A stretch of DNA of 37,604 nucleotides from Clostridiales bacterium (GTDB taxonomy: Bacteria; Bacillota; Clostridia; Lachnospirales; WQUN01): NCBI GenBank assembly GCA_031282635.1, contig JAITDJ010000161.1, positions 1-37,604 on the forward strand, written 5' to 3'. Below the pieces are notes generated by a model. The model worked only from the letters and a program-made list of their open reading frames with translations, was not told where the DNA came from and searched no databases. This document shows positions 2,965 to 12,300 of the stretch, piece after piece; positions within the stretch are counted from its first letter, which is position 1, and each line of letters begins with the position of its first letter. The position numbers were made by a program, and so were the translations under genes.

Positions 2965-2987
2965 GTATCAAGAGGAGATGATACAGT
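2962..2987 (+). promoter_or_regulatory. Perfect inverted repeat, putative TA autoregulatory operator
   Basis: ACTGTATCA (2962-2970) / TGATACAGT (2979-2987), 9-bp arms with 8-nt loop AGAGGAGA; overlaps the -10 box, contains the Shine-Dalgarno and touches the GTG start. Confidence 0.65.
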
Positions 2988-3264
2988 GCCCACAATTCAG
3001 TTCCGAACAGACGAAACAACCAAATCTCAATCCAATAAAATTTTCCAGCAGCTAGGAATTACAATGTCTGACGCTATTAATATGTTCCTGCGTCAATCAA
3101 TATTGCACGGCGGTCTGCCGTTTGAGTTGAAAATACCGAAGTACAGCGATGCCACGCTCGCTGCGCTCGCCGACATGGAACAAAGCAAAGGCAAAGGTAT
3201 TCGAGGGAAAGCGGTTCGCGATGCACTCGCAGATTTAAAAGCAGATGGCGGTGACGACGTTTGA
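2986..3264 (+). CDS. RelB/DinJ family type II antitoxin
   Basis: 92 aa; TIQFRTDETTKSQSNKIFQQLGITMSDAINMFLRQSILHGGLPFEL is typical of DinJ/RelB ribbon-helix-helix proteins; followed by a YafQ-like toxin. Confidence 0.85.
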   Translation: MPTIQFRTDETTKSQSNKIFQQLGITMSDAINMFLRQSILHGGLPFELKIPKYSDATLAALADMEQSKGKGIRGKAVRDALADLKADGGDDV

Positions 3265-3542
3265 ATGTACGTTGACGAAGCCAATTCAAGAAGGACTACA
3301 AGCTGATGATGAAACAAAACAGAGATATTGCCGCGTTGGATGTTGTGATCGAAGAATTGGCTGTTCCAAACCCTTTACCAGAAAAGTACCTTGACCATCC
3401 GCTCAAAGGAGATCACAAGGGGTATAGGGAATGCCATATTGAACCGGATTGGCTTCTGATTTACGGCTATGAAACGCTTAATGTTGATAAAAATCAATTA
3501 CTTCTCGTTAGGACAGGTACACATTCAGATTTGCTTGAATAA
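3261..3542 (+). CDS. YafQ-like RelE superfamily mRNA interferase toxin (N-terminus interrupted by TGA; re-initiation possible at 3306)
   Basis: ORF 3306..3542 keeps DHPLKGDHKGYRECHIEPDWLLIYGY and THSDLL. In the same frame upstream, RSQFKKDYKLMMKQ extends the homology but is cut from LNVR by TGA at 3273. Confidence 0.75.
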
Positions 3543-3901: not shown

Positions 3902-4957
3902 GTGGTGAGTATGAACCCTGGAATTGCGGTCATTGGTTATGGCGGCATGGGAGGGCATCATGTAAGAAGATTGATGCTGATTCCGGAAGAAGTAAGGGTT
4001 ACCGGTATTTTCGACATAGATCCTGCAAAGGGAAAAGCGGCTCAACAAGCGGGTATAAACGTTTTTTCCTCACAGGAAGAGCTGCTTGCGGATCCCGCGA
4101 CCGATATCGTGATTATCGCGACGCCGAATGATACGCATAAGTCTATAGCTGTTGCCTCTATGGAACGAAAAAAACACGTGATATGTGAAAAACCCGTTAC
4201 TATGTTCTGTGCGGATTTGCGAGAGATGATCGATTGCGCGAATAAAAACGGAGTGATTTTTTCTGTGCATCAAAACCGACGATGGGACGAGGATTTCCTC
4301 ATGGTCAGTAATTTGTATCGGGAGGACGCGCTCGGCCGTGTCTTTACGATAGAATCGCGGGTTCACGGTTCCAGGGGTATACCCGGCGATTGGCGGAAAC
4401 AGGCGTCGAAGGGCGGCGGTATGGTACTGGACTGGGGCGTACACATACTCGATCAGATGCTGTGCTTGATGGGAGATCGCGCTATTGAATCGCTCTACGC
4501 CCAGTATTCTTACGCTTTGGGAGAAGAAGTGGAGGATGGTTTCCGCGCTGATTTTCGCTTTGAAGGCTCGCTGAGTTTTCACCTGGAAGTCAGTACCATG
4601 AATTATATAAATTTGCCCCGCTGGTATATACAGGGCGCTAAGGGTACAGCGGTTATAGAACGTTTTGATTCCGACGCCCGGCTGATGCTGCCCAGAGGAA
4701 AGGCGGACGACGCGACTCCGGTCGTAACGGCGGCCGGTATTACCAAGACTATGGCGCCCAGAGGCGCCGATACTTTGACCGAAGTGATTCGGCCAAAACT
4801 TACTTCCGATGTTAAGGATTATTACAGAAACTTTATTAAGGCTGTTCGCGGCATGGAAGAACAAATCGTCACCCACGCCCAAATGCTGAGAGTTCTTGGA
4901 ATAATTGAGAAAATGCATATATCCGCTGGAGAAAACACAATTATTCGCAATATCTGA
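3902..4957 (+). CDS. Gfo/Idh/MocA family oxidoreductase
   Basis: N-terminal Rossmann motif IAVIGYGGMGGHHVRRL; IIATPNDTHKSIAVASMERKKHVICEKPV is the characteristic EKP motif. Alternative start ATG 3911. Confidence 0.9.
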   Translation: MVSMNPGIAVIGYGGMGGHHVRRLMLIPEEVRVTGIFDIDPAKGKAAQQAGINVFSSQEELLADPATDIVIIATPNDTHKSIAVASMERKKHVICEKPVTMFCADLREMIDCANKNGVIFSVHQNRRWDEDFLMVSNLYREDALGRVFTIESRVHGSRGIPGDWRKQASKGGGMVLDWGVHILDQMLCLMGDRAIESLYAQYSYALGEEVEDGFRADFRFEGSLSFHLEVSTMNYINLPRWYIQGAKGTAVIERFDSDARLMLPRGKADDATPVVTAAGITKTMAPRGADTLTEVIRPKLTSDVKDYYRNFIKAVRGMEEQIVTHAQMLRVLGIIEKMHISAGENTIIRNI

Positions 4958-4965
4958 TTGAAACC

Positions 4966-4995
4966 GGCGATTAAAAATATGGCGATTAAAAATAT
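4966..4995 (+). repeat. Exact tandem duplication of a 15-mer in the GRE 5' leader
   Basis: GGCGATTAAAAATAT repeated directly (4966-4980 and 4981-4995), followed by AAGGAGGAAC RBS. Confidence 0.85.
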
Positions 4996-5010
4996 GATAA
5001 GGAGGAACAG

Positions 5011-7194
5011 GTGAGAAATCGAATCAATCAACACAGTCCTGACGCGCCGATGAGCTATCGCGATCGCATGGCGATTTTACGGCGGCATAAAATCGAAGAT
5101 ACACAAGACAAAAAAGGGCTTCGACAATACGCGGACGGAGACGATTACGGGGCGATAACCCCGCCGGCTGATTTTGAGTTTAAGCCCTGCGTCAACCACC
5201 CCAATGGCGGCTGGTATGGATATGAAGGCTGGTCCAAGACATTTTATAAACTGATGGAAGAGCATCCGGTCTTTATAGATCCCTGCGACGCTTTCCCGAA
5301 TCGGTTTATGGTCTGCCTGTCGTTCGTAAAGCCCATTCCTCCAGTGTTCAATCCGGATTATCCGTACGACGATCTGCGCGAACGTCAGACTAAGTACGGC
5401 ATTATGGGCGGGATCGGCGCGGATTCCCATTTCGGCGGGGATTATCGCGTGGGTTTGGAAGTCGGTTGGGGCGGTTTATTGGAAAAACTTGAAAAATACC
5501 AAGCGATAAATCCCGGCTGTGATGATTTCTACGACGCCGAGATAATGACCGTAAAGGGCGTACAACTCTGGATGAGGCATACCGTCGAGGAGATCGGCAA
5601 GGCCATTCAGCTTGAGACGCACCCCGCGCTTGTCGAGAATCTCAAAGAAATGCGAAAAAATACCGAATTTCTTATAGACCACAAACCGGAAACGCTGCGT
5701 CAGGCGTGCGAGTGGATCTGCTGGTTCAACATGGCGTCTAGGGAGTACAACCGCGACGGCGCCGGCGGCCAGCTTGACGAACTGCTGCGTCCTTATTACG
5801 AGCGGGATCTTGAGGCGGGCGTTGTTAACGAAGAAAAGGCCAAATACTATCTCGCATGCCTGCTGCTTAACGACGCGCATTATTATCAGGTAGGCGGCGT
5901 GACCGCCGACGGATCGGATATGGTCACGTATTTTTCCTATATGATACTTGAAGCGGCCGATTGGCTGGATTCGTCCTGCAATATTACGGTTCGCGTCCAC
6001 AAAAACATTAATCTGGATTTTCTCAAAACATCCGTGGGTTACCTCTTTAAAAACAAGAACGGATGGCCGCGCTTTTCCGGGGACGATGCCCTGACTAACG
6101 GTTTTATGCGCAAAGGCTACCCCAAAGAGCTGGCCGTACAGCGCGTCGCGGTAGGGTGTCACTGGATGAGCCTCCCGGGCATGGAATATTGCCTGAATGA
6201 TTGCGTTAAGCTCAATAACGCCAAGCATTTCCGTATCGCGCTGGACGAGATGATGGTCTCCGACGATGAGAAAAGCACAGCGCGTCTGTGGGAACTGTAT
6301 CGCAGGCACACGCGCAAAGCTATTGAACTGACGGTCGAGGGCATAATGTTTCATCTGAAATATCAAGCTTATAATATCCCTGAACTGATGCTCAACCTGA
6401 TCTGCCATGGTCCCGTGGAACGCGGCCTTGACGTGACGGCGGACGGGGTTGATTATTATAACATGTGTATCGACGGGACGGGTATAGCCACAGTGGCCGA
6501 TTCGTTCGCGGCGATCGAACAGCGGGTGGAAAAGGAAAAACGCCTTACCTGGGAGGATATGTACGCCGCCGTTACCTCGAATTTTGAGGCCATGGGGGGG
6601 GAAGTCACGCGCAAAATGCTCGCGTCAAGCGCTCGTTACGGCGGTGGGAACACAATCGCGGATGTATGGGCGGAGCGCGTCTCGAAGACGTTTGCCGACG
6701 ACGTCGTCAGTATGGATACCGAGAAGGTAAAGTTTATCCCGGGTTGGTTCTCATGGTCAAATACGATTATAATCGGCAAACAAGTTGGCGCGACCCCGAA
6801 CGGAAGAAAAGCCGGCGAGCCGATTAACCACGGCGCGAACCCGCATCCCGGGTTCCGCAAGGATGGGGCGCTGACAGCCATGTCTAATTCCATCTGCGCG
6901 ATTCAACCGGGCTACGGCAATACCTCGCCGATTCAGCTTGAGCTCGACCCCGGTATGGCCCAGGATGAAGAAGGAGTCGCCAAGATTGTGGACTACATCC
7001 GCACAATATGCGAACAAGGCAGCACGCTGCTTAATATCAATATCATTGACGCCAATAAGATCCTCGCGGCGAATGAAAACCCAGACGCTTATCCTGACTT
7101 GGTCGTCCGCGTTACGGGCTTTACCGCGTATTTCTGTCTCCTTACGCCGGAATTCCGTAAACTGGTGGTCGATAGGATTTTGATAGCGGCTTAG
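5011..7194 (+). CDS. Pyruvate-formate-lyase-like glycyl radical enzyme of uncertain substrate
   Basis: 727 aa; C-terminal glycyl radical motif RVTGFTAYF (Gly703 of this ORF) and candidate active-site Cys383 in VGCHWMSLPGMEY; GTG start with strong RBS; activase encoded two genes downstream. Confidence 0.9.
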   Translation: MRNRINQHSPDAPMSYRDRMAILRRHKIEDTQDKKGLRQYADGDDYGAITPPADFEFKPCVNHPNGGWYGYEGWSKTFYKLMEEHPVFIDPCDAFPNRFMVCLSFVKPIPPVFNPDYPYDDLRERQTKYGIMGGIGADSHFGGDYRVGLEVGWGGLLEKLEKYQAINPGCDDFYDAEIMTVKGVQLWMRHTVEEIGKAIQLETHPALVENLKEMRKNTEFLIDHKPETLRQACEWICWFNMASREYNRDGAGGQLDELLRPYYERDLEAGVVNEEKAKYYLACLLLNDAHYYQVGGVTADGSDMVTYFSYMILEAADWLDSSCNITVRVHKNINLDFLKTSVGYLFKNKNGWPRFSGDDALTNGFMRKGYPKELAVQRVAVGCHWMSLPGMEYCLNDCVKLNNAKHFRIALDEMMVSDDEKSTARLWELYRRHTRKAIELTVEGIMFHLKYQAYNIPELMLNLICHGPVERGLDVTADGVDYYNMCIDGTGIATVADSFAAIEQRVEKEKRLTWEDMYAAVTSNFEAMGGEVTRKMLASSARYGGGNTIADVWAERVSKTFADDVVSMDTEKVKFIPGWFSWSNTIIIGKQVGATPNGRKAGEPINHGANPHPGFRKDGALTAMSNSICAIQPGYGNTSPIQLELDPGMAQDEEGVAKIVDYIRTICEQGSTLLNINIIDANKILAANENPDAYPDLVVRVTGFTAYFCLLTPEFRKLVVDRILIAA

Positions 7195-7209
7195 ATATGA
7201 AGGCGATAA

Positions 7210-7258
7210 GATTTGCCAAACGCAAAAACCGCGCTTGGCAAATCCCAGCTTTCGCTGG
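7210..7258 (+). promoter_or_regulatory. Two adjacent hairpins between GRE and the downstream TIM-barrel gene
   Basis: GATTTGCCAA (7210-7219) / TTGGCAAATC (7235-7244), 10 bp perfect; then CCAGC/GCTGG (about 7245-7258). No T tract follows. Confidence 0.5.
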
Positions 7259-7284
7259 TATAAATTAAAAAGGAGCTGGCGTTT

Positions 7285-8172
7285 ATGTACAGACTGGCTA
7301 ATGTGGCGTGGGGTTGGACGCCTATCCCGGAGAATCTCCCAAAGGATGACTCGCTGTTCCGGATTGCCGATAAAATTAAAGAGATTGGTTTTGAGGGCGT
7401 TGATTATTTAACGACTCAGGAGTCTATTGATAAGTACTTCACCGAGCGGCTCAGTAAGGATTTGGGGGATTATTGCCGCTCCATCGGATTGCCGCCTAAC
7501 GTTTTGGTTTATCAGTCTTTTGACTGGCACGGGGAGGCGGATTCGGTCAAAGCTCACTGGGAGCATTTAGAGAAACATATCCAAATCGCGCAGTGGATAG
7601 GCTGTAATATTGTATCCTGTCTGTCTGTGCCGCCACGCGGCGCCGCGCGACCGCACGCGAGTTTTGCCAGCGCGGCTATGAAGCGTTCCTACAACCTGCC
7701 TGACGACTATGACTATGAGGCGGATTGGAACAGTCTCGCGGAGTCCTTCAAAAAGGCGCTGAAATTGGTCAAAACGGCCGGTATGCGTATGTCTATTGAA
7801 TGTTTCCCCGGAACGATGGTTTCAACCCCCGAAGCGATGGTCAAGATGACAAACGATGTGGGCGATCCCGATTTTGGAATTCAACTGGACACGAATCACC
7901 TGGTTCACCAGAGTATTGACCCCGAATTCGCGATTAATATAGTGGGCGGTAAGCGGATCTTCAATGTGCATTGCAAGGATCACGACGGGGTGACCCGCGG
8001 GAATATCCCCTGCGGCACGGGAATTATCGACTATCAGCGTGTAATTCACGCGCTTGAGAAAGTCGGCTATGAAGGCAGTCTGACGATTGAGCAGGAATTT
8101 ACGGATAACCCTCGGCGCTATAATTTACAGGGGTACGAACATATACGCAAGTGCTTGGCGGGTACGTATTGA
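7285..8172 (+). CDS. Sugar phosphate isomerase/epimerase family (xylose-isomerase-like TIM barrel)
   Basis: KIKEIGFEGVDY, SIECFPG, FGIQLDTNHL, FNVHCKDHDG, SLTIEQE: a metal-ligand pattern typical of AP-endonuclease-2/IolE-like barrels. Confidence 0.88.
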   Translation: MYRLANVAWGWTPIPENLPKDDSLFRIADKIKEIGFEGVDYLTTQESIDKYFTERLSKDLGDYCRSIGLPPNVLVYQSFDWHGEADSVKAHWEHLEKHIQIAQWIGCNIVSCLSVPPRGAARPHASFASAAMKRSYNLPDDYDYEADWNSLAESFKKALKLVKTAGMRMSIECFPGTMVSTPEAMVKMTNDVGDPDFGIQLDTNHLVHQSIDPEFAINIVGGKRIFNVHCKDHDGVTRGNIPCGTGIIDYQRVIHALEKVGYEGSLTIEQEFTDNPRRYNLQGYEHIRKCLAGTY

Positions 8173-8246
8173 TTAACCGGCGGAATTCCCATTCAACGTT
8201 GTGATTCTGGCGGAAAATAAAACGCGAAAGGGGAATAATCAGCGGC

Positions 8247-9155
8247 ATGCGGGGAATAGTCACTGATATTATGCGATTTTCTCTCAAAGACGGGCCGGGA
8301 ATCAGGACGACAGTTTTTCTGAAAGGGTGTAACATGGTCTGTAAATGGTGCCATAACCCGGAGACGTTGTCGATAAACCCGCAGATATTGAATTATCCGG
8401 AGAGATGTATTGGATGCTTTAATTGTGCGCGGGCGTGTAAACACGGCTCGATCGTTATCGAAGGGTATGGGGCCGCTTCCAGATTAGCCTTTTATACGGA
8501 AAAATGTATTGACTGCGGCGCGTGCGCCGATGTCTGCTATACCGGAGCGCGGGTCATGTCCGGTAAGGAGATGACCGTTGACGAGGTAATGGCCGAAGTC
8601 TCACAGGATGTAAACTATTATCGGAATTCCGGCGGCGGTGTGACCGTCAGCGGAGGTGAGGCGACGGTACAGCCCGAATTTACTTTAGCCATCCTGGAGT
8701 CCTGTAAAAAGTCCGGGATCTCCACAGCCATTGAGACAAACATGCTGGCGGACTGGCGGGTGTTTGAACAGCTCATACCGGCGTTGGATCTGGTAATGCT
8801 GGATGTCAAGCTGTTTGACAGCGACGCCCACCGAAAGTGGACCGGCGTGGGTAACGGGCGGATTTTGGAAAACGTGAAAAAGATGTCTGCCTGTCTGCCG
8901 ATCATCGTCAGGACGCCCGTAATTCCGGACGTCAATGACACGGCGGGAGAGATCGGTAAAATCGCGTCGTTTGTTAAAGGCTTAGATAATGTTGAGTATT
9001 ATGAGCTTCTTTTGTATAACCCATTGGGCGAGAGCAAGTATCAGGCCCTTGGAATGAAAAATCGGTTTTCGGGGCGAAAGCCGCAGACGGGTGAGGAAAA
9101 AAGACTTCTGACAGAGGCTGCGCAGGCGTGTGGCAAGGCGGTTAGGGTGATGTAA
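8247..9155 (+). CDS. Glycyl-radical enzyme activating enzyme (radical SAM, two extra [4Fe-4S] motifs)
   Basis: DGPGIRTTVFLKGCNMVCKWCHNPE (CxxxCxxC), ferredoxin motifs CIGCFNCARAC and CIDCGACADVC, SGGE motif, DVKLFD. Confidence 0.95.
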   Translation: MRGIVTDIMRFSLKDGPGIRTTVFLKGCNMVCKWCHNPETLSINPQILNYPERCIGCFNCARACKHGSIVIEGYGAASRLAFYTEKCIDCGACADVCYTGARVMSGKEMTVDEVMAEVSQDVNYYRNSGGGVTVSGGEATVQPEFTLAILESCKKSGISTAIETNMLADWRVFEQLIPALDLVMLDVKLFDSDAHRKWTGVGNGRILENVKKMSACLPIIVRTPVIPDVNDTAGEIGKIASFVKGLDNVEYYELLLYNPLGESKYQALGMKNRFSGRKPQTGEEKRLLTEAAQACGKAVRVM

Positions 9156-9227
9156 TCCGATACATATCAAAAATGTGTTTAGGTATAGACAGACGTGTAA
9201 TAAAGGTTAAGAAAGGAAAGTGACGAA

Positions 9228-10433
9228 ATGGAAAGCAAAGAATTGCGCGTTGGGTTCATTGGAACGGGCGTTATCTCGCACCAGCATATGCAGGGATACG
9301 CCGAAGTACCTGGCGTTAAAGTGGCCGCCGCCTGCGACATCGACAAGCCTGTGCTGGACGCTTGGTGCGATAAATACGGTATCCCTGAGGACTGCCGCTA
9401 TACGGATTACAGGAAATTGCTTGAGCGTGACGACATTCAGGCGGTAGACGTCTGCGTCCACAACAACCTTCATACCCCCTTGTCCGTCGCGGTTATGCGC
9501 GCCGGAAAACACTGTTTCTGCGAAAAGCCTATGGCGGCGACTTACGCGGACGCCAAAACGCTGTATGACGCATGGGAGCGCTATCATAAGGAATCCGGCG
9601 TGGAACTGGCCATTCAGATGGCCACGATTTTCCAGAGTCAGACGCGCTTGGCGAAAAAACTCATAGAACAAGGCGATTTAGGCCATGTGTATTTCGCCAA
9701 TGTAATCGGGCACCGCCGCCGCAACCGTCCGGGTCTGGAATCAAACCTCTCCACGAATTTCTTCAACAAACAACTGGCCGGCCGCGGCGCTCTGTATGAC
9801 ATGGGCATATATCATATAGCCCAGATGCTGTTCATCCTTGGCATGCCTGAGCTGGATCGTGTTTCCGGATCCATGTTCTCCGAGATCGAGCCCAGTGAAA
9901 AGCTGCTTAAAGGCAACAAATTTGAAGTGGAAGAGCTGGCCATGGGATTCGCGAAATTCGCCGGCGGGCTTTCACTGAACTTTATGGAATCATGGGCTAT
10001 CCATATGGATACTATCGGGGATACCTATATCGCGGGAAGCAAAGGCGGGCTGAAATTTATTTATGACCCCCCACAGCCATTCGCGCCCCCAATCCCGACC
10101 GCCAGTCTGAAACTCTTTACAACGAAGAACGGGCAGGATGTCGACATAAATATGAACTGCGGCATGAACGCTTTTATAGAGCAGGGCGAGGCGCCTGATA
10201 CGAAATTCTGCAACAATAATAATGTCCATTGGTACGCCGCGCTTACAAAACAAATCGGTTTCCGCTATCCAACCCATAAGATCGCGCTGGAAACCGCCAG
10301 ACTCAGCGAAGGCATTGCGCTTTCAAGCGAACTGAACCGGGAGATTTGCGCTGCCGAAATCGACGAGTTGAGCAAGCCCACGGCGATGCGCAGGCAGGTT
10401 ACCGAATGGGGCGTTTTTGAGTACGAGTTCTAA
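9228..10433 (+). CDS. Gfo/Idh/MocA family oxidoreductase
   Basis: LRVGFIGTGVISHQHMQGYAEV; VCVHNNLHTPLSVAVMRAGKHCFCEKPMA. Confidence 0.92.
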   Translation: MESKELRVGFIGTGVISHQHMQGYAEVPGVKVAAACDIDKPVLDAWCDKYGIPEDCRYTDYRKLLERDDIQAVDVCVHNNLHTPLSVAVMRAGKHCFCEKPMAATYADAKTLYDAWERYHKESGVELAIQMATIFQSQTRLAKKLIEQGDLGHVYFANVIGHRRRNRPGLESNLSTNFFNKQLAGRGALYDMGIYHIAQMLFILGMPELDRVSGSMFSEIEPSEKLLKGNKFEVEELAMGFAKFAGGLSLNFMESWAIHMDTIGDTYIAGSKGGLKFIYDPPQPFAPPIPTASLKLFTTKNGQDVDINMNCGMNAFIEQGEAPDTKFCNNNNVHWYAALTKQIGFRYPTHKIALETARLSEGIALSSELNREICAAEIDELSKPTAMRRQVTEWGVFEYEF

Positions 10434-10459
10434 AGATATACTAATATACAGGAGGGCTT

Positions 10460-11572
10460 ATGGCTAAATACAAAGTCGCCGTTATTGGAAATGGCATGAT
10501 AGCGAATGCCGCCCATATACCCGCATGGCGTGACATTACAGACATCGCCGAAATCGTCGCCGTGGCGGACGATCGCGGCGGTATAGCCCAAGAAACGGCG
10601 GAGCGGTACGGGATCCCCCAACACTACAAAGATTACAATGAACTGCTGGCGAAAGAGCAGCCGGACATCGTTTCGGTCTGCACGCCAAATGTCTATCATA
10701 AGGCGGCGGCAATCGCGTCGCTGAAGGCCGGCGCTCATGTTCTATGCGAAAAGCCCCTCAGTGTCAGCGAGGCCGGCGCGGCAGAAATGTACGACGCCGC
10801 CGAAAAAGCCGGCAAGATTCTATACGCGAATCAGACCATGCGCTTTATGGAACCGATGATTGCCGCAAAAGCCTTCTTTGACGCGGGGTATGTCGGCAAA
10901 CCGTATTATATTGAAGCGAGCGCGGTGCGCCGCAGAGGCATACCCAAATGGGGTTTCTTCCATATGAAGGAGCATAACGCCTGGGGGCCGGGTTTTGACA
11001 TAGGCGTACACGTACTCGACGCGTTGCTGTGGATCGTCGGAGCGCCGAAGGTAAAATCTGTCGTCGGTAAAGCGTACACGGCGTTCGGCGACAAGGACGA
11101 GGGGCTTAAGGAATCGTTGGCCGAGAGCGGTGCGCCGATTGGCGTATTCACACCGAGACCATACAGTTACAAAGAGTTCAATGTCGAGGATTTCATAACC
11201 GGTTTCGTACGGCTTGAGGGCGGCCTGACGCTTAGCCTCAAGGCAAGCTGGGCGATCAACGCGCCGGAAGGCGGCGCCGCTACATTCATTTCCGGGACTA
11301 AAGGCGGGTTGAGCTTATTCCCGGAATTAGAGCTGATTTCAAACATGGCGGGTTATCAGACAAGCGCCAAAGCCAAGGTTCCGACAACAAATAATATTCC
11401 ATTTTCAGGTCATTTCGGAGCGACTAAGCAGATGATCGCCGCAATTGAAGGGCGAGAGGAAATGCTGGTGAAGAAAAGCGAGGTACTTAACGTGCTGCGC
11501 ATCTTAGATGCCCTGTACGCTTCGAGTGAAAGCGAACATGAGGTTGTATTTGAGAGGAGTATGCAAGAATGA
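10460..11572 (+). CDS. Gfo/Idh/MocA family oxidoreductase
   Basis: KVAVIGNGMIANAAHIPAW; VCTPNVYHKAAAIASLKAGAHVLCEKPLS. Confidence 0.93.
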   Translation: MAKYKVAVIGNGMIANAAHIPAWRDITDIAEIVAVADDRGGIAQETAERYGIPQHYKDYNELLAKEQPDIVSVCTPNVYHKAAAIASLKAGAHVLCEKPLSVSEAGAAEMYDAAEKAGKILYANQTMRFMEPMIAAKAFFDAGYVGKPYYIEASAVRRRGIPKWGFFHMKEHNAWGPGFDIGVHVLDALLWIVGAPKVKSVVGKAYTAFGDKDEGLKESLAESGAPIGVFTPRPYSYKEFNVEDFITGFVRLEGGLTLSLKASWAINAPEGGAATFISGTKGGLSLFPELELISNMAGYQTSAKAKVPTTNNIPFSGHFGATKQMIAAIEGREEMLVKKSEVLNVLRILDALYASSESEHEVVFERSMQE

Positions 11573-12300
11573 AGGTAGGGGTACAGTTCTATTCATTTAT
11601 CCCTTTGATTAAAGAGGGCAAATTTGACGAGGCGCTCAGCCTGGCGTCCCGTTGCGGCGTGGATGGGGTAGAGCTATTCAGCTACTATGATATTCCCGCT
11701 ATAAAATATCGCAAGGCTTTTAATGACGCTGGTATTGTATGTTATGGCTCTCATAACCATTTGTCACCGTTACTGAATGATCTGGATCATGTTATGGAAT
11801 ACAATTATATAGTGGGAAATCCGACGATAATCTGTCATTATCTTATGGAGGATGAGCGCGGCGATTTGGATAAGTATCTGTACGCGGCCGAATCCTTTAA
11901 CAAGATCGCTTCGGTACTTAAAACTAATGGTTTCAATTTCGTTTATCATAACCATGACTTTGAGTTCCGGGATGTGTTCGACGGTAAATACGCTCTGGAT
12001 GTAATTTTGGAGAACACAGATCCCAATCTGGTCGGTATGGAGTTGCATATAGGGCAGCTTCCCGTTTTTAATATAGATATTTTAGAGTACATGAAGCGGA
12101 TCGGCAGACGAATTAAAATGTTACACGTTCATTGCGCGGATAGGGACGGCCAGCCGTTCGACAGCGGACCTGCGATTGCTTACGGACGCGAGTTGAATGT
12201 GGAATGGGCCGTGCTGGAGGACGTATATCCCGCGGATGCTGAGCCGGAGCGCGTAAAAAAGGATATTAACTCAATACGCTTAATGGCGTTGGGGAATTAA
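11569..12300 (+). CDS. Sugar phosphate isomerase/epimerase family TIM barrel
   Basis: VGVQFYSF, LASRCGVDGVELFSYY, FVYHNHDFEF, VGMELHIGQL, IKMLHVHCADRD; ATGA overlap with the preceding gene indicates translational coupling. Confidence 0.9.
   Translation: MKVGVQFYSFIPLIKEGKFDEALSLASRCGVDGVELFSYYDIPAIKYRKAFNDAGIVCYGSHNHLSPLLNDLDHVMEYNYIVGNPTIICHYLMEDERGDLDKYLYAAESFNKIASVLKTNGFNFVYHNHDFEFRDVFDGKYALDVILENTDPNLVGMELHIGQLPVFNIDILEYMKRIGRRIKMLHVHCADRDGQPFDSGPAIAYGRELNVEWAVLEDVYPADAEPERVKKDINSIRLMALGN

Follow-up and report, generated by a model that had tools for sequence, protein, structure and literature searches.

The question raised by this locus is how an oxygen-sensitive glycyl radical enzyme (GRE) might work without the glutamate two residues past its radical cysteine, a residue treated as a hallmark of GRE eliminases. 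The gene lies at 5011..7194 on the forward strand of the window, by which we mean the whole 37,604-nucleotide stretch analysed (a contig from a Clostridiales bacterium). It has a GTG start with AGGAGG directly 5' of it, and its 727-residue product matches the Pfam families PF02901 (E=1.3e-87) and PF01228 (E=9e-15). The PFL-like domain, the glycyl radical domain, the Cys loop and the Gly loop are all present. An AlphaFold2 model, built with 47 family members as input, has a mean pLDDT of 92.1 and a pTM of 0.92; the PDB matches listed by Foldseek are GREs, headed by PflD with 1,5-anhydromannitol-6-phosphate (8id0, E=6e-37) and followed by E. coli PflD and CutC. By its domains, fold and loops, and by the activase encoded nearby, the protein is a member of the PFL-like GRE superfamily. 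Every NCBIfam model falls far under its cut-off for this protein, the top one, TIGR01774, scoring 233 against a cut-off of 678; the nearest equivalog, NF007437 (PRK09983.1, PflD/YbiW), reaches 191 bits and is likewise below its cut-off of 1109. The same assembly holds one further protein with a weak glycyl radical domain match and the sequence GCRTRV, which we take to be NrdD-like.

The cysteine loop and the remaining catalytic frame

Numbered from the GTG at 5011, the codon of Cys383 occupies 6157-6159, in the context V-G-C-H-W-M-S-L-P-G-M-E-Y. The preliminary description of this DNA had placed the motif at 6151-6186; the motif exists, but 6151-6186 translates as VGCHWMSLPGME, and the Cys loop GCHWMSLPGMEY lies one codon later, at 6154..6189 (+). 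When the CxW family profile, GCnWmslPGleytlnD, is aligned with PflD GCVELSIPGRTYGLHD (297 bits), GCxW falls on GCVE with zero gaps. Trp385 therefore sits at the position of the CXE glutamate, and the loss of the glutamate at +2 is real. The description had also reported this absence, with the nearest glutamate nine residues past the cysteine, and here it was right: Trp385 and Glu392 (+9) are both invariant among 117 relatives. The CXE motif is conserved among GRE eliminases, its glutamate is generally believed to be the base, and in trans-4-hydroxyproline dehydratase (HypD) the CXE Glu436 is essential by mutation (PMC7077986). As judged from the alignments, CxW takes the place of this hallmark in all 117 relatives. 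Since the CXE feature was tested for and is absent, the window protein is a GRE that stands outside the CXE eliminases, though it may still work like one. Pyruvate formate-lyase was rejected as an identity: the adjacent Cys418-Cys419 pair is absent, and a lone cysteine is followed by H/N/Q-W. The possibility that another cysteine faces the glycyl radical, which had been raised as a way in which the assignment could fail, is unsupported because no cysteine other than Cys383 is invariant.

Two further elements of the active site can be placed by alignment. His140-x3-Asp144 (5428..5442, +), invariant in the CxW family, aligns with glycerol dehydratase His164 and HypD His160, and Asp397 of Asn396-Asp397 (6196..6201, +) aligns with Asp447 of glycerol dehydratase. 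In the latter enzyme we take His164 and Asp447 to be the acid pair near the leaving group, and Glu435 to be the CXE glutamate. The histidine and aspartate that eliminases have by the leaving group are thus both retained, as His140 and Asp397, and elimination with the help of another base may still be the reaction catalysed. Asp249, which aligns with HypD Asp278, is conserved in only 85 of the 117 relatives and is therefore excluded as a general base for the whole clade. Glu392 aligns with a glutamate that HypD-type GREs carry besides the CXE one; as that residue is absent from the named active-site residues of HypD (PMC7077986), Glu392 need not be a relocated base.

The glycyl radical loop, RVTGFTAYF (7108..7134, +), contains Gly703, the predicted radical site by sequence and conservation. 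Gly703 is found in 114/114 letters among the CxW relatives and Thr702 in 113/113, apart from one X. An aminoacyl radical enzyme, in which the glycine is changed to Ala, Ser or Thr, is ruled out by this invariance. The loop had been called conventional; in fact RVTGF is confined to the CxW branch, the 42 other GREs sampled having RVAGY, RVSGY, RVGGF or similar sequences in which T never precedes the glycine.

The C-[HNQ]-W clade

Cys383, Trp385, Pro389, Gly390, Glu392 and Asp397 are each conserved in 117/117 relatives, and His140, Asp144 and Asp256 are invariant wherever aligned (His140 in 116/116 letters). Position 384 varies (N in 69, H in 45, Q in 3), so that the motif first written GCHW is really C-[HNQ]-W. 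This variation rules out His384 as a key residue; the emphasis that had been put on it, and on the invariance of GCHW, has to be moved to Trp385, the invariant replacement. Eighty of the 117 relatives came from a scan of genome contigs with patterns that include the motif and are thus biased towards its conservation, which is why it was rechecked on sets gathered by whole-protein similarity. Among class-level relatives obtained in this way, 28/30 carry GC[HN]W (the window copy counted) and the two most distant GCQW; all six near relatives (6/6) carry GC[HN]W. The invariance of Trp385 is far beyond chance, the motif-free sets included.

The other GREs sampled (n=42, a set that leaves out the CxW protein L162) have CXE in 35 cases and CVV in 7; the partial L014 reads GCQW. 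Seven CutC-like GREs have GCVVP instead of GCVEP and a glutamate at the place equivalent to His140, making this a second Cys loop devoid of glutamate, with a possibly compensating one elsewhere; one of them, L019, scores about 490-540 bits against CutC. An unrooted tree of 82 sequences, in which some branches are long, separates all 41 CxW proteins from the rest by a single branch (SH-aLRT 98). Members occur in at least seven phyla (Bacillota, Bacteroidota, Planctomycetota, Lentisphaerota, Verrucomicrobiota, Spirochaetota, Chloroflexota, Armatimonadota), and their identity to the window protein drops to about 36-45%. The change from glutamate to tryptophan is thus the signature of a widespread clade, not of a single odd protein. 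No characterised member of the branch was found in the databases and literature searched. The literature covered, which was chiefly open-access, gave no assignment for a GRE linked to GH92 or mannose, to DgpA, to 3-keto sugars or to operons with Gfo/Idh genes, so that a prior assignment is possible. As to the altered chemistry or substrate proposed at the outset, a distinct function and an acid/base arrangement unlike that of known eliminases are supported by the clade-wide invariant loss of the glutamate in an uncharacterised branch; altered chemistry is inferred, not shown.

Genes around the enzyme and its relatives

In the window, the GRE belongs to a run of seven genes on the forward strand (3902-12300, gaps of at most 90 bases) that encode three Gfo/Idh dehydrogenases, two TIM barrels, the GRE and its activase. 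The latter (8247..9155) is a radical-SAM GRE activating enzyme with a ferredoxin domain, matching TIGR02494 at 332 bits (cut-off 174). The Gfo/Idh/MocA dehydrogenase at 3902..4957 has a full-length match to DgpA2 (9m37, 169 bits), outscored by 3e18, which is named just 'oxidoreductase'; those at 9228..10433 and 10460..11572 both have DgpA (7xr9) as their top PDB match, at 114 bits and, over the full length, at 218 bits. DgpA is described as a glycoside 3-dehydrogenase (PMC11239390). The first xylose-isomerase-like TIM barrel (7285..8172, PF01261) is epimerase- or IolE-like: it scores 56.6 bits with the IolE model, far under the cut-off of 290, its PDB matches to L-ribulose and D-psicose 3-epimerases are weak, and the PDB comparison gave no match to DgpC. 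The second such barrel (11569..12300) matches PF01261 at 34.8 bits (cut-off 31.1). No RNA element was detected in the window with Rfam, and the promoter and terminator scans gave results near chance. Just 5' of the operon, two small ORFs (2986-3542, +) resemble, by eye, a DinJ/RelB antitoxin and a YafQ-type toxin; further upstream, an ABC transporter (1279-2817, +) departs from the expected C-terminal sequence past ISERGGGQ, probably because its ATPase domain is frameshifted or truncated.

Among the CxW relatives, a profile-based count places an activase near the GRE in 73/81 loci; a gene of the neighbourhood map ('cluster 6') that lies over the activase on the opposite strand was taken as an antisense shadow. 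In Bacillota, the same dehydrogenases and barrels recur beside the activase, relatives of the 10460-11572 dehydrogenase adjoining it in five loci, and sugar transport of the ABC type is represented by 15 BPD_transp_1 permeases and 5 SBP among 111 neighbour proteins. In Bacteroidota, RhaT-type or MFS sugar importers lie near the CxW GRE, and about half of the loci carry GH92 or GH47 alpha-mannosidases. Against a background of 2.2 GH92 genes per Mb in 14 Bacteroidota genomes with CxW loci, GH92 is enriched, being found within about 12 kb in 7/23 loci (binomial P about 1.5e-6, a rough value, as the loci are related, the GH92 genes clustered and the counts made by eye). No PTS family was found in the operon genes or among the top 25 neighbour families listed.

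Other neighbours differ from one group to another. In 18 Bacteroidota loci, a cupin of about 138 residues is encoded immediately 3' of the GRE; it has zero Pfam matches, and since its sole strong PDB relative, CA_C3497 (3d0j), is uncharacterised, it is uninformative on the substrate. In four loci, mainly of Lentisphaerota, a conserved cupin-like protein of about 251 residues follows the GRE; neither Pfam nor NCBIfam matched the copy in L054, and the Lentisphaerota double cupin had no significant match. In Puteibacter, the GRE module comes after genes like those of inositol catabolism (TPP enzyme, aldehyde dehydrogenase, TIM barrel, Gfo/Idh). Because the neighbour sets differ between subclades, one substrate for the whole clade is unlikely, and the low identities within it likewise suggest that subclades may differ in substrate.

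Proposed reaction, alternatives and known systems

We propose, with a probability of about one half, that the window gene encodes a working GRE of the uncharacterised C-[HNQ]-W clade, which acts on a carbohydrate within a sugar-catabolic operon and lyses a C-O bond without the CXE glutamate. The activase would generate the radical on Gly703, from which it would pass to Cys383, and the thiyl radical would abstract hydrogen at a carbon of its substrate, an unphosphorylated sugar of the hexose type; in the window operon, the DgpA-like dehydrogenases would probably supply it as a 3-keto or anhydro sugar. His140 and Asp397 would protonate the leaving oxygen, so that the C-O bond breaks. A carboxylate base could be dispensable if a carbonyl beside the radical centre activates the substrate; alternatively, another residue could deprotonate it, Asp249 where present, or His140. 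The product would pass to the TIM-barrel or cupin isomerases. The stacking of tryptophan on sugar rings is common in carbohydrate-binding sites, and the packing of Trp385 on the ring, at the place of the eliminase glutamate, would account simply for the substitution. Retention of the His/Asp pair fits the loss of an oxygen leaving group, and the missing glutamate fits either a substrate activated by a neighbouring carbonyl, which DgpA-like enzymes would introduce, or another base. C-O elimination itself is assumed by extension from the closest characterised enzymes, and these are remote (about 20-21% identity in structural alignments).

The enzyme could instead be an ordinary CXE-type sugar lyase whose base has relocated to Glu392 or to another carboxylate and which performs a conventional diol-type elimination. 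The invariance of Glu392 (117/117), the conservation of His140, Asp144 and Asp397, and the position of PflD as closest characterised relative agree with such an enzyme; however, the +9 glutamate of HypD-type GREs coexists with the CXE one and is not named in the HypD active site (PMC7077986), which suggests a structural role, and we judge the relocation unlikely. The missing base could also mean that nothing is eliminated, as the C-C-cleaving GRE pyruvate formate-lyase is likewise without CXE and DgpA-type partners are known from C-glycoside catabolism; the enzyme would then break a C-C bond of a sugar derivative (for example a C-glycoside or keto sugar) by radical chemistry, or would act as an epimerase or isomerase. 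Such a reaction seems improbable, given that the His/Asp acid pair of C-O leaving-group chemistry is retained, that the PFL-type double cysteine is absent and that no aglycone-handling genes were seen in the operon; an epimerase would, moreover, lack a second invariant cysteine as hydrogen donor. Fumarate addition by an X-succinate synthase-like enzyme would dispense with the CXE base as well, its proposed mechanism needing just the Cys and Gly radicals (PMC12358834), but we regard it as highly improbable: the CxW family profile matches TutD/MasD at 122-135 bits against 297 for PflD, the operon has no genes for small Fe-S accessory subunits, and the neighbours are sugar genes.

A wider reading is also conceivable: CxW proteins may form a separate GRE class that, lacking a CXE carboxylate and with the tryptophan stacking on the sugar, deoxygenates keto or anhydro sugars that carry no phosphate, or opens them, in the anaerobic breakdown of glycosides and alpha-mannosides in many phyla. 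This we put forward tentatively, and it is rather doubtful. A large clade that lacks the glutamate while keeping the rest of the catalytic frame nevertheless offers a natural experiment on the role of this residue, and the steady link with sugar genes (alpha-mannosidase loci in Bacteroidota; DgpA-like operons in Bacillota, e.g. in Neglectibacter timonensis) points to an unrecognised step in anaerobic carbohydrate breakdown.

Among known systems, the closest by fold and by top profile and structure match are PflD, the 1,5-anhydromannitol-6-phosphate C-O lyase (E. coli, S. dysgalactiae; 8yjo, 8id0), and YbiW. PflD and YbiW convert anhydro sugar phosphates into 1-deoxyfructose-6-phosphate by ring-opening C-O cleavage, the phosphorylated anhydro sugar being supplied by the PTS (PMC12441222). 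PflD and the CxW GRE share His-x3-Asp, a GCxxxxxPG loop followed by Asp and, presumably, a sugar-type substrate. PflD differs in having GCVELSIPG (CXE) and RVAGY, in its low identity (19-21% when the structures are aligned), and in using a PTS-made phosphate, whereas the surroundings of the CxW genes examined showed no PTS gene. The CxW GRE keeps the His164 and Asp447 places of B12-independent glycerol dehydratase (1r8w; 17% identical by structural alignment), with Trp385 where that enzyme has Glu435. The likeness to HypD lies in the His160 place, in the glutamate at Cys+9 and in Asp278, the counterpart of Asp249; HypD differs by its CXE Glu436, its substrate class and its operon. Finally, the best functionally named PDB matches of the three Gfo/Idh operon partners are DgpA and DgpA2, glycoside 3-dehydrogenases of C-deglycosylation; the DgpABC scheme, as summarised in the literature covered, includes no GRE, in contrast with the window operon, which has one.
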